From contig NZ_NPKJ01000068.1 of the NCBI RefSeq assembly GCF_002284575.1, positions 434,001-498,000 of the forward strand: a DNA stretch of 64,000 nt, written 5' to 3'. The DNA comes from Mesorhizobium temperatum. Lineage in GTDB: Bacteria; Pseudomonadota; Alphaproteobacteria; Rhizobiales; Rhizobiaceae. Each line of letters begins with the position of its first letter. The first letter of the stretch is position 1. Below the pieces are notes generated by a model that saw only the letters and a list, made by a program, of their open reading frames with translations, did no database searches and was not told the origin of the DNA. Made by a program: the position numbers and the translations under genes. This document shows positions 5,565 through 50,743 of the stretch, piece after piece.

Positions 5565-8282
5565 TCAGAGATTGCGCAGCACCGGCGCCGCCTTGTGGCC
5601 CAGCACCCGCCAGGTGCCGGCGAGGCCAATGCCGACCGTGACCACCAGCGCAAAGGCGATGGTTGCCACTGCCACATCAGGCATGAAATGCGATGGCAGC
5701 GTCATGACGCGGGCGACAACGAACCACGCGGCAACCCCGCCTGCCGCCAGCGCGAAGATCGCGGTGGCGAGGCCGATCAGCATGTATTCCAGCGAAAAGG
5801 CCGCGATCAGCGTCTTCCTGGTGGCGCCCAGCGTCTTCAGCACCACTGCATCGTGGATGCGGGCGCGGTTGCCGGCGGCCAGCGCGCCGGCCAGCACCAG
5901 CACCGAGGCAATCAGCGCCACGCCGGCCGCAGCCCTGATCGCGGTGCCGAGTTGCGCCACCAGCCGGTTGACGATGTCGAGCGCGTCCTTGACCCTGACC
6001 GTCGTCACCGCCGGAAAGGCACGGGTGACGGCGTTGAGAAGACGGGCATCGTCGGCCGGCGACGCGCCCTTGTCGTTCAGTGTCGCCAGCCAGCTATGCG
6101 GCGCGCCGGCAAACGTGCTGGGCGAGAACACCATGACGAAATTGATGCCCATCGTCTCCCATTCGACCTGGCGGAAATTGGCGATCTTCGCCGTCACGTT
6201 GCGGCCAAGCACGTTGACGGTGATGGTGTCGCCAAGCTTCAGCCCGATCTCTGCGCCTTCCTCGGCCGAAAACGACACCAGCGGCTCGCCGGCATAGTTG
6301 TCCGGCCACCAGGTGCCTTCGGTCAGCGTCGCATTCGCGGGAATACTGGCCTCGTAGGTCAGCCCGCGATCGCCGCGCAGCACCCAGGCCCCTTCCGGCG
6401 CAACCCTAGCCTTGTCGACGTCGACGCCGTTCAGCGCCATCACCCGGCCGCGCAGCATCGGCACCTTGACCAGCGTGCCCTTCGGCGCTTGCCTGCCGAC
6501 CAGCGCTGAGAACGCGTCGACGTCGCTGCTCTGGATATCGACGAAGAAGAAGTTCGGCGCCTGTTCCGGCAGGCTGCCGGAAATCTGCCGCCTGAGATTG
6601 CCGTCGATCAGCGCCAGCGTCACCAGAAGCGTCAATCCCAGCCCCAGCGACAGCACCACCGACGGCGTCAAGGCACCTGGCCGATGGATGTTGCCGATGG
6701 CGAGCCTGAGCACCGTCGAGCCAACGCGCGGGCTCTTTTTGGCGGCCCACTGCACCAGCGCGCCAACGATGCGCAGCACCAGGAAAGCAAAAATGGTGGC
6801 GCCGACGAAGATCGAGGCGATATAGCGGTCGCCGGAAAACAGAATGGCCAGCGCCGCCAGGAGCAACGCGATGCCGAGCGCCGCCGCCGTGTAGAGCGGG
6901 CGCGGAAAACCGCGGCCCTCAAAACCCATTTCGCGAAACAGCGCCGTCGCCGGCACGTCGCGCGCACGGCCGAGCGGCAGCAAGGCGAAAGCCAGCGTCA
7001 CCAGCAGCCCGAACAGCGCCGCCATGCCGAGTGCGCCGGGATAGAACCCACCTTCCGCCGGCACCGGAATGACCGACTGGAGTACCGCGCTCGCCGCAAA
7101 CGGCATCAGCGCGCCAAGCCCAAGGCCGACCGTGATGCCGAGCGCGGCGATCATCAGTATCTGCACCAGATAGACGGTAAAGACGAAACCGCCCGAAGCG
7201 CCTAGGCTCTTGAAGGTGGCGATGACGCCGCGCTTGCCGTCGAGATAGGCGCGCACCGCATTGGCGACGCCGACGCCGCCGACCACCAGCGCCGTCAGCC
7301 CAACCAGCGTCAGGAACTGCGAAAACCGTTCGATGTTGGAGGACAACGCCGGTGCTGCGTTGCTGCGCGTGCGGATCGACCAGCCGGACTCGGGAAAATC
7401 CTCCGCCGCCTGATCCTGAATGGCTTTTATGCGCGCCTCGCCGGTGCCGCCGGGCAGGCGGACCTTGTAGGCGTTCTCGACCAGGCTGCCGGGCTGGATC
7501 AAACCGGAAGCGGCAAGCCCGTCCGTCGAGATCATCAGCCGCGGCGCAAAGCCGAAGCCGTCGGATACCGCGTCCGGCTCGTTGACGAGCCTGGCGCGCA
7601 GTTCGAAGGTGGCGCTGCCCAGCTTCAGCCGGTCACCGATCCCAAGGTTCAGCCGCTCGAACAAGAGGTCGGGTGCGGCGGCGCCAAAAACACCGGATTT
7701 TTCGCCGAACAGTTCCTGCTTCGACAGCACCGGCTCGGTCTCCAGCGCACCATAGAGCGGATAGGCTCCATCGACCGCCTTGGCCTCGACCAGCGCCTGA
7801 TCGGAACCGTCCTCGAGCCGCGCCATCGAACGCATGTTGGCGCTGTGCGAGACCGTGCCCAGCCCGTCAAGAAAGACGCGCTCGGCTTGTGTCGCGGCGC
7901 GCTGATTGAGCTGGAAACGAAGATCGCCGCCGAGCAGCGACTGGCCTTCGTTGGCGACACCGGCGGTAATCGCCCGGGCCACCGAATTGACGCCACCGAT
8001 CGCCGCGACGCCAAGCGCGATGCAGGCAAGGAAGATCAGGAAGCCGGACAGCCCGCCGCGCATCTCGCGCAGCGAAAAGCGGAAGGCGAGTGAAAAGGTG
8101 CGCGCCCAAGTGGCCGCTTCATCCGGCCGCGGAGCCTGTCCTCTGGCTTGCCGAAGGCAAGACCCGTGGGCGTCCACCTTCTTCCCGAGCTGAGAAGAGG
8201 TCGCCAACGCCGGCGCCAGCCTCTTCTCCCCGCCGGGGAGAAGGTGGCCCGAAGGGCCGGATGAGGGGATCTTGTCAGCCAT
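5565..8282 (-). CDS. ybbP: FtsX-family ABC transporter permease (YbbP-like) with repeat-derived N-terminal segment
   Basis: This is a 905-residue permease of the FtsX/MacB type. It has an N-terminal membrane segment, a large extracytoplasmic domain, a cluster of membrane helices around residues 300-500, a second extracytoplasmic domain and a C-terminal FtsX domain. It pairs with the ATPase immediately upstream, ending four bases before this ATG, and is divergent from the tesA-like esterase. The same grouping occurs in E. coli (tesA/ybbA/ybbP). The conserved N-terminus begins near residue 60 with RTFSLAFRFSLREMRGGL. Residues 5-56 are encoded by a dispersed palindromic repeat read in frame, which is unusual. 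No later ATG gives a complete first helix, so translation through the repeat is likely. Its substrate is unknown; an envelope lipid or lipoprotein role is inferred from the family. Confidence 0.9.
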   Translation of the reverse strand: MADKIPSSGPSGHLLPGGEKRLAPALATSSQLGKKVDAHGSCLRQARGQAPRPDEAATWARTFSLAFRFSLREMRGGLSGFLIFLACIALGVAAIGGVNSVARAITAGVANEGQSLLGGDLRFQLNQRAATQAERVFLDGLGTVSHSANMRSMARLEDGSDQALVEAKAVDGAYPLYGALETEPVLSKQELFGEKSGVFGAAAPDLLFERLNLGIGDRLKLGSATFELRARLVNEPDAVSDGFGFAPRLMISTDGLAASGLIQPGSLVENAYKVRLPGGTGEARIKAIQDQAAEDFPESGWSIRTRSNAAPALSSNIERFSQFLTLVGLTALVVGGVGVANAVRAYLDGKRGVIATFKSLGASGGFVFTVYLVQILMIAALGITVGLGLGALMPFAASAVLQSVIPVPAEGGFYPGALGMAALFGLLVTLAFALLPLGRARDVPATALFREMGFEGRGFPRPLYTAAALGIALLLAALAILFSGDRYIASIFVGATIFAFLVLRIVGALVQWAAKKSPRVGSTVLRLAIGNIHRPGALTPSVVLSLGLGLTLLVTLALIDGNLRRQISGSLPEQAPNFFFVDIQSSDVDAFSALVGRQAPKGTLVKVPMLRGRVMALNGVDVDKARVAPEGAWVLRGDRGLTYEASIPANATLTEGTWWPDNYAGEPLVSFSAEEGAEIGLKLGDTITVNVLGRNVTAKIANFRQVEWETMGINFVMVFSPSTFAGAPHSWLATLNDKGASPADDARLLNAVTRAFPAVTTVRVKDALDIVNRLVAQLGTAIRAAAGVALIASVLVLAGALAAGNRARIHDAVVLKTLGATRKTLIAAFSLEYMLIGLATAIFALAAGGVAAWFVVARVMTLPSHFMPDVAVATIAFALVVTVGIGLAGTWRVLGHKAAPVLRNL
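8117..8269. repeat. palindromic repeat, family A, inside the ybbP coding region
   Basis: It contains CTTCTCCCCGCCGGGGAGAAG and ends that pair as CATCCGGCC/GGCCGGATG. It shares the module GGTCTTGCCT(T/C)CGGCAAGCC plus GACAGGCTCCG with the copies at 12522 and 50562. It is translated in frame as residues 5-56 of the permease. Confidence 0.8.
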
Positions 8283-8286
8283 TGCG

Positions 8287-8982
8287 CTACGCCGTCACTT
8301 TAAGCAATGGGGCGTCCTCGATCCGGCCCGACCGCATCGATACCTGCCGGGAGCAGCGTGCGGCAAGCGCCGGATCGTGGGTGACCAGCACCAGCGTCAT
8401 GCCGCGCTCGGCCGCCTTGGCGAACAGAAGATCGGCGACCTGCCGTCCCGTGGTCTGGTCGAGATTGCCGGTCGGCTCGTCGGCGATCAGGATGCGCGGC
8501 GACGGCGCCAGCGCCCGGGCGATCGCCACACGCTGCTGTTCGCCGCCGGACAATTCGCCGGGATAGTGGGTGATGCGGTCACTCAAGCCCACCGCCTCCA
8601 GCTCCCGCGCCGCCACCCCGAACGGATCGGTATGGCCGGCAAGTTCCAGCGGCACTGCGACATTTTCGAGCGCCGTCATATTGGGAATGAGGTGGAAGGA
8701 CTGGAAGACGATGCCAATGTTTCGTCCCCGAAACGATGCAATCCGATCTTCGCTCTTGCCGTTCAGCAATTCGCCGGCAATTCGTACCGTACCCGAATCG
8801 ACCCTTTCCAAGCCGGCCAACACCATGAGCAGCGTCGACTTTCCCGAGCCCGACGGCCCGACGATGCCGGTCGCCTCGCCATCAGCCACATCGAGGCTGA
8901 CACTTTTCAGCACATGAACGGAAGACGCTCCTTCGCCGAGCGTCAGCGATACGTCTTTCAGCGCGATGACGGCTTCTGTCAA
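8287..8982 (-). CDS. ybbA: ABC transporter ATP-binding protein (YbbA/LolD-like)
   Basis: A 231-residue ATPase with all ABC motifs: Walker A GPSGSGKST near residue 42, signature LSGGEQQRVAIARAL near 145, Walker B ILIADEPTGNLD near 165 and a final LVTHD histidine. Sequence style and partner place it with the YbbA/LolD/MacB exporter ATPases that drive FtsX-type permeases. The start appears to be TTG at 8982, giving MTEAVIALKDVSLTLG, with AGGA upstream; no ATG fits better. The permease gene follows four bases after its stop, so translational coupling is expected. The promoter region is shared with the divergent esterase gene. Confidence 0.93.
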   Translation of the reverse strand: MTEAVIALKDVSLTLGEGASSVHVLKSVSLDVADGEATGIVGPSGSGKSTLLMVLAGLERVDSGTVRIAGELLNGKSEDRIASFRGRNIGIVFQSFHLIPNMTALENVAVPLELAGHTDPFGVAARELEAVGLSDRITHYPGELSGGEQQRVAIARALAPSPRILIADEPTGNLDQTTGRQVADLLFAKAAERGMTLVLVTHDPALAARCSRQVSMRSGRIEDAPLLKVTA

Positions 8983-12521: not shown

Positions 12522-12678
12522 CCTTCTCCCCTTGTGGGAGAAGGTGGCCTCGCCCACGGGTCTTGCCTCCGGCAAGCCCGAGGACAGGCTCCGCGAGGCC
12601 AACGCCTCATTTCTTCCAACACCGCTCTTCCGTCTCGGCGCTGCGCGCCGATCCACCTTCTCCCACAAGGGGAGAAGG
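12522..12678. repeat. palindromic repeat, family A (TTGTGGGAGAAGG type)
   Basis: This fills most of the 12474-12784 gap. It opens with CCTTCTCCCCTTGTGGGAG and closes with CTCCCACAAGGGGAGAAGG, an almost perfect inverted pair, around an interior that includes GGTCTTGCCTCCGGCAAGCC. Close copies lie at 50562-50743 and 56744-56885. Confidence 0.85.
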
Positions 12679-36692: not shown

Positions 36693-36719
36693 CGGTCGCC
36701 TGTCGCGATCCTTCGCGCA

Positions 36720-36869
36720 CCCCTCTGTCCTGGCGGACATCTCCCCCACACGGGGGGAGATTAGCAGTTTCAGCGCCCCGCTCCCCCCTGCGACGAAGGA
36801 GGTTGGCGAAAGCGGTGGTGACAGCCAATCTCCCCACTCGTGGGGGAGATGTCCGGCAGGACAGAGGGG
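36720..36869. repeat. large inverted repeat, family B (CTCTGTCCTGCCGGACATCTCCCCC type)
   Basis: The arms 36720-36747 and 36842-36869 are reverse complements with one mismatch in 28 bases. The interior adds ACGAAGGAGGTTGGCGAAAGCGG. No gene is visible in the 36693-36919 gap. Confidence 0.8.
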
Positions 36870-36919
36870 GGCGCTGTCCCTCCAGCATCAAAAATCGCGG
36901 AGCGATCGCCGCCTTTCCC

Positions 36920-50561: not shown

Positions 50562-50743
50562 CCTTCTCCCCTTGTGGGAGAAGGTGGCCGAGCCCACGGG
50601 TCTTGCCTCCGGCAAGCCCGATGACAGGCTCCGCTCGGTCGGATGAGGGGTGTTCCAGCTTGGCACCGACGGCGCTCCGTCCAGCACCCCTCAACCGTCT
50701 TGGCGCTGCGCGCCAATCCACCCTCTCCCACAGGGGGAGAAGG
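50562..50743. repeat. palindromic repeat, family A (TTGTGGGAGAAGG type)
   Basis: CCTTCTCCCCTTGTGGGAG opens and CTCCCACAGGGGGAGAAGG closes it. The interior carries GTCTTGCCTCCGGCAAGCCCG and GGCTCCG as in the copy at 12522. It fills the 235-bp gap between the Trm112-like and LON-domain genes. Confidence 0.85.

Follow-up and report, generated by a model that had tools for sequence, protein, structure and literature searches.

An in-frame palindromic repeat, probably a tolerated N-terminal tail, at the ybbA/permease junction of Mesorhizobium

How does a palindromic repeat that is scattered through a rhizobial genome come to lie in frame at the start of a conserved permease gene, and what becomes of it there? 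Palindromes read in frame are best known from Rickettsia, and the dispersed palindromic mosaic repeats of rhizobia called RIME are named as intergenic elements; the repeat discussed below is likewise a dispersed palindromic repeat of rhizobia. In the window, by which is meant the whole stretch of 64,000 nucleotides analyzed, a repeat of family A follows the start codon of a gene for a YbbP-like permease, next to ybbA. The explanation favored here, held with considerable though not complete assurance, is that this repeat inserted where the ybbA stop and the permease start overlap and is now read as a tolerated N-terminal tail of the permease. The features concerned are the following.

5565..8282, minus strand: gene for a YbbP-like ABC permease, 905 aa, ATG start, with the repeat in frame after the start codon
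8117..8270, minus strand: in-frame palindromic repeat segment, permease codons 5-56
8173..8269, minus strand: part of the family A palindrome, comprising its left arm, a type 1 centre and the start of the right arm, 92.9% to the glyS copy of genome G044
8128..8172, minus strand: extra dispersed 45-nt piece in the permease insert, present too in genomes G083 and G143
8280..8282, minus strand: permease ATG start codon, 4 nt past the ybbA stop
8175..8177, minus strand: GTG codon 36, in the repeat, the main alternative start
8287..8982, minus strand: gene for a ybbA-like ABC ATPase, whose last codons, APLLKVTA-TAG, are part of the altered junction
12523..12595, plus strand: dispersed copy of the permease repeat upstream of rlmN, 86% over 73 nt; the RlmN match starts at ORF residue 96
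50563..50646, plus strand: dispersed copy of the permease repeat, 83% over 84 nt
36713..36886, no strand assigned: copy of repeat family B, a family seen in frame in glyS and PDH E2

The coordinates bear out the preliminary description in placing an ATG at 8282, four bases past the ybbA stop, as the opening of the permease frame. Its identification of codons 5-56 as a dispersed palindromic repeat is likewise confirmed: positions 8128-8172 are complementary to 12551-12595 at 96%, and a search of the same genome (7.17 Mb) with 8115-8272 returned 42 matches at E <= 0.001, the query site included. The repeat is multi-copy and dispersed in its own genome, although the number of matches is not a copy count, because certain matches coincide on the two strands and scores were computed for just 40 of the 138 initial candidates. 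Positions 8170-8267 (98 nt) are 92.9% identical to a repeat copy inside glyS of G044. Permease family sequence had been said to resume downstream of the repeat, and the NCBIfam YbbP model NF041854 does begin there, aligning to residues 68-891 with 294 bits, under its cut-off of 999; the Pfam match of the permease is FtsX. An Rfam scan of 7900-8500 gave just two plant miRNA matches, both far under threshold. The suggestion that the segment forms a flexible cytoplasmic tail gains slight support, in that residues 1-53 have no secondary structure in the AlphaFold prediction (10-residue pLDDT means of 26-40), but the model as a whole is poor (mean pLDDT 45.2, pTM 0.30).

The other copies had been described as intergenic, which likely holds within the window and fails for the genus, where glyS contains a copy in frame and another repeat family lies in frame in glyS and further genes. 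Four other repeat places in the window are overlapped by 11 ORFs of at least 120 aa. Nine of these have no family match, six having been tried with Pfam alone and three with Pfam and NCBIfam; the remaining two are rlmN, with a match only from residue 96, past the repeat, and an ORF with a LON domain, which lies beyond the repeat match. At 29 further loci of the same genome the covering ORFs are too ambiguous, in GC-rich DNA, for a count of genic copies. Loci L062-L070 were dropped as candidate in-frame fusions, their frames resembling the antisense of other genes when the translations were read by eye.

Comparison across the genus establishes that the segment is an insertion absent from most orthologues. 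The ybbA/permease junction was read in 143 of 146 Mesorhizobium genomes (G024, with the gene in pieces on two contigs, and G079 and G121, with no match at the cut-off, were left out), and the permease was present in 61 of 61 genomes of the first genus sample. Repeat or remnant occurs at 25 junctions, 5 are altered without a repeat (G023, G059, G111, G141 and G063) and 113 have neither; the arm motifs of the repeat were found in none of these 113. The alignment of orthologues that the preliminary description had proposed therefore yields permeases without the segment in abundance, and the contrary prospect, that all orthologues carry it, is not what the genus presents. Repeat-free permeases open directly as M-PLS-RTLKLA or M-RTLKLA, and at 100 of the 113 unaltered junctions the permease start overlaps the ybbA stop as T(G/A)ATG. 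The altered junction (n = 30) has a ybbA end of LLKVTA or similar, then TAG or TAA, 2-4 nt and a start codon. G006, G101 and G078, which branch deeply in a midpoint-rooted tree, also have the T(G/A)ATG overlap, and on that ground the overlap is probably the older form, although spacings differ in other deep taxa. Among the 25 repeat-bearing junctions, 22 carry at least 120 nt with a centre, G113 and G112 are partial, and G102 has a short diverged version. Among named loci, the best 80 of a capped list and so a non-random set, repeat DNA was flagged in 8, and 7 were unread for want of the motif; M. mediterraneum USDA 3392 and M. metallidurans STM 2683 are carriers identified in this way.

These junction forms suggest how the insertion might have proceeded. 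A dispersed rhizobial palindrome of family A would have entered the overlapping ybbA stop and permease start, the altered junction would have gained a new ybbA stop and, 2-4 nt beyond it, a start codon, and the repeat would thereafter be read as N-terminal permease codons. The altered flank was considered as a part of the mobile unit and ruled out: the exact altered-junction pattern has 26 matches in 24 of the 146 genus genomes, every one at the ybbA/permease junction, and of 297 genomes across the family just two contain it, each a member of the genus (the reversed control gave 1 match). The pattern being confined to one junction, the flank is no dispersed repeat in its own right. As a separate observation, G019 (L109) and G110 (L189) have a different sequence at the ybbA 3' end, with a changed YbbA C-terminus, and this sequence resembles, by eye, a dispersed repeat family (D9) of the window.

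Whether the repeat is translated depends on which start codon is used, and translation of the segment from the start coupled to ybbA is very likely on the evidence of the aligned alleles. At all 30 altered junctions the start codon 2-4 nt past ybbA is in frame with the permease core, across 13 different start-to-core lengths. Seven altered alleles offer no start codon (ATG, GTG or TTG) ahead of the core other than codon 1, three with the repeat (G112, G113 and G102) and four without it (G111, G141, G023 and G059); in G106 an additional GTG stands one codon ahead of the ATG. The frame held over 13 lengths, together with the three repeat alleles that have no other start, argues that the segment is translated, and a start downstream of the repeat, which the preliminary description had raised against itself, is unlikely for the same reasons. 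The open frame is weak evidence of translation, because the inserts are often free of stops in other frames and the DNA is GC-rich: all 22 inserts that reach 120 nt are open in the gene frame, 15 are open in the next forward frame, 1 in the third and 21 in one reverse frame.

A mis-assigned start would give a different account, in which the repeat is a 5' leader, translation begins at the GTG inside it (codon 36 here) and the hairpin is a spacer that tunes coupling. Such a GTG does occur in frame, in the right arm, in 22 of the 25 repeat-bearing alleles, and a survey of REPs warns that those at N-terminal coding ends may be extragenic and placed in genes by annotation error (PMC3733652). The palindrome also forms a long RNA hairpin, with 21 of the 23 alleles examined folding strongly (z between -4.9 and -12.2), and the substitutions in the insert, described below, have no coding signature. 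Yet the spacing from the upstream start to the GTG takes five values (codons 32, 34, 35, 36 and 37), all in frame, which would be needless for a leader; G112, G113 and G102 do not have the GTG, and their sole start adjoins ybbA; and the start lies 2-4 nt past ybbA at every altered junction. A leader with an internal start is thus improbable, and translation of the whole segment from the coupled start remains the preferred reading.

Once in the gene, the palindrome appears to have changed further. Sorted by eye, the 22 longer inserts comprise 10 with a type 1 centre and 12 with a type 2 centre, the outer arms, where kept, having one orientation in both. Of 120 pairs compared, 114 have the type 2 centre closer to the reverse complement of type 1 than to type 1 read directly (means 0.82 vs 0.74), and within types the direct values are 0.87 and 0.82 and the inverted values 0.76 and 0.73. 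The two centres are therefore inversions of each other, and both are open in frame. Because an inversion leaves length unchanged, the downstream frame is kept. On the tree of carriers centre type needs 3 changes, and the sisters G056 and G031 differ in it. Loss of the repeat in frame is likely in G111 and G063, judging from their placement: G111, without an insert, groups with the carriers G107 and G097, and G063, also without one, with the carrier G008. After entry, then, the centre would have come to stand in either orientation and part or the whole of the palindrome would have been lost in frame, while the lineage of the window would have acquired an extra repeat piece within the insert. 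Template switching or recombination between arms may be the cause of both inversion and loss.

Tolerance of the resulting peptide is suggested by its substitutions. Calculated on the alleles of equal length, seven with a type 1 centre (from 10) and six with a type 2 centre (from 12), pN/pS of the insert is 0.62 for type 1 and 0.89 for type 2, and that of the core 0.17 and 0.11. The insert residues thus look near-neutral, nearly free to change. In the wrong frames pN/pS of the insert is 0.73-0.99 and a third-position excess of substitutions is absent, so that the substitutions do not by themselves favor translation. Synonymous divergence in the insert is 0.11 (type 1) and 0.09 (type 2) against 0.32 and 0.22 in the core, or a third to two fifths of the core value, which implies that the insert either arose later than the species or has been constrained or homogenized. 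The reading frame and the coupled start would accordingly be what is held in this gene, and not the residues, the repeat peptide being a tolerated, near-neutral and probably flexible cytoplasmic tail.

Constraint might still act in another form, if the repeat were kept for a selected function of the peptide or of the hairpin, for example in mRNA stability between ybbA and the permease. The strength of the hairpin in most alleles and the low divergence of the insert are in keeping with this, as is the small number of disrupted stem pairs (17 broken cells of 816). A covariation analysis of 17 alleles, however, found a double change in just 1 of 48 stem pairs and gives no support to such selection; together with the 17 broken cells this makes the stems look young or homogenized rather than selected. 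The window's own copy, moreover, forms a weak fold (z -2.8 over the start-to-core stretch, -1.0 for 8127-8272 alone), G102 being the other exception among the 23 alleles (z +0.4). Near-neutral residues, the partial losses and probably the full losses too point the same way, and a selected function is improbable.

The patchy distribution of the altered junction poses a separate question. A tree was built from the 2.5 kb permease core of 142 taxa, one genome per species, with G133 dropped as too short and G102 scored as unaltered. The 29 altered junctions need 20 state changes among these taxa, at least 15 of them forced by branches with SH-aLRT of 95 or more. Shuffled labels need 26.9 changes on average, and 1 of 500 shuffles was as low as 20; in the first 60 taxa, 10 changes were needed for 11 insert carriers and 10.3 after shuffling. 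Altered and unaltered junctions are in this way scattered over the genus, and short-tract recombination would be the simplest cause of that scatter.

Two histories could lie behind the patchiness. The altered junction may have spread horizontally between species, or it may be an old polymorphism of two states that has persisted. The many changes, most of them forced by well-supported branches, are what horizontal spread would produce, as is a foreign part that looks short: in 17 sister pairs, chosen and not random, the flanking genes follow the species and are as alike near the junction as further off. A possible exception is the core's opening 30 nt, at 0.092 where the three windows that follow have 0.025-0.039, although a later window also has 0.090. 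The foreign part would then be the ybbA tail, as judged by eye, and perhaps those 30 nt. The low synonymous divergence of the insert likewise speaks for a younger or homogenized allele. On the other side, junction and arm distances in 22 carriers track core distances (Mantel r 0.43, 0 of 2000 permutations; means 0.118 vs 0.139), which speaks for an allele inherited within clades, although for the right arm alone the correlation is weak (r 0.11, 103 of 2000); and centre type, as noted, changes just three times among carriers. Spread between species is kept as a genuine but less favored possibility, and the balance inclines toward an old allele that has been reassorted in short tracts.

The permease is not the only gene affected. 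In glyS of G044 (L061, 831-3410), which encodes the beta subunit of glycyl-tRNA synthetase, a family A copy lies in frame; over 123 nt it shares 97.6% identity with the permease insert of G060, and it is read in the same frame. The glyS gene was read in 50 of 146 genomes (L271-L320), a non-random set of 30 best matches and 20 chosen by hand, with segments found by text rules. Repeat-derived segments occupy site 1 in 3 of the 50 and site 2 in at least 16, and site 3 holds family A in 2 and family B or a remnant in 21; at this third site family A is present in L271 (G044) and L272 (G143), and family B in L273 and others. In the genome of the window sites 2 and 3 are occupied, giving 825 codons against 703-706 in three insert-free relatives, and the glyS frames listed mostly have about 705 to 955 codons. 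A different feature of this gene is a hypervariable region in G014, G030, G066, G064, G095 and G139 (between alignment core columns 579 and 593), which can reach some 90 residues, differs strongly among species and, judged by eye, does not look derived from a repeat.

Similarly, family B lies in frame in PDH E2, where it occupies the linker that joins the lipoyl domain to the E3-binding domain; a text rule finds it in 23 of the 30 best matches, a sample biased because the query held the repeat; in 4 of the other 7 (G058, G050, G039 and G012) a degraded family B is visible by eye. The loci are these.

L330:1231-2601, L349:1180-2592 and L435-L464: PDH E2 with family B in the linker

Several unrelated genes are therefore hit, glyS and PDH E2 as judged from orthologues and two more by domain position only: hydantoinase A, with family B between two domains (L334:802-3135, L348:649-3117), and a PcrA/UvrD-like helicase, with family B after the first helicase domain (L347:656-3130), in which the insert peptide fits better on the opposite strand. 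These in-frame copies in other conserved genes, and the centre in two orientations, go beyond what the preliminary description contained. Several families of dispersed palindrome may together act in Mesorhizobium as a general system of protein-coding insertions, supplying linkers and tails to conserved and even essential proteins (three sites of glyS, the PDH E2 linker, hydantoinase A, the PcrA-like helicase and the YbbP-like permease), with different families at one site in different species, centres that flip while the frame stays open, and alleles with and without the repeat that have persisted together across much of the genus. This broader proposal is tentative, the balance standing slightly against it.

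Among the systems most like this are the Rickettsia palindromic elements (RPE), of several families and about 100-150 bp, which lie between genes and in frame in unrelated conserved genes, the peptide being apparently tolerated (PMC2229807, PMC10969869). In-frame palindromic repeats are described from Rickettsia, enterobacteria and others (PMC2229807, PMC10969869, PMC3733652), and a title cited in one of them speaks of a Wolbachia equivalent of RPE (PMC3733652). Like RPE, the Mesorhizobium repeats are palindromic, of several families, and found both between genes and in frame in unrelated conserved genes; unlike RPE, their host is a Mesorhizobium whose genome measures about 7 Mb, the centre within the gene occurs in both orientations, and alleles with and without the insert are scattered at one site. 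The preliminary description's comparison with RPE is thus apt in mechanism: the insert appears to work as RPE do. ERIC/RU and other enterobacterial MITEs are small palindromic elements with open frames fused to genes (PMC2229807), and here too the resemblance is that of a small palindrome with an open frame fused to a gene, in different hosts. The present case gains interest from centres that stand inverted, from its series of intermediate alleles and from the repeated occurrence of such inserts in conserved genes. The genus has large genomes and cultured strains, and its 143 junctions, unaltered, full, centre-inverted, partly deleted and altered but insert-free, offer a direct view of inserts entering, flipping, shrinking in and leaving a gene. 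As a caution, codons derived from repeats can distort family models and start calls in rhizobia.

In the literature searched, outside which most subscription papers lay, no report of in-frame palindromes in rhizobia was found, and the available part of an account of Bradyrhizobium REPs makes no mention of intragenic or in-frame copies (PMC5082802); the terms sought were absent from PMC2573895 as well. GTAG/CGTC REPs, palindromic units of 20-40 bp, are reported inside genes too (PMC3733652), and are like the present repeats in that respect; they differ in the size of their units and in that RAYT was not found in the genus sample. A transposase of RAYT type (PF01797, Y1_Tnp) was sought in 13 genus genomes and found in none, 5 of 14 control genomes being positive, and RAYT was consequently dropped as the mobilizer. 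The arm motif itself (at most 3 mismatches) occurs in 15 of 121 genomes of the order, in 12 of 84 genera with Mesorhizobium among them, and the reversed control gave 0.
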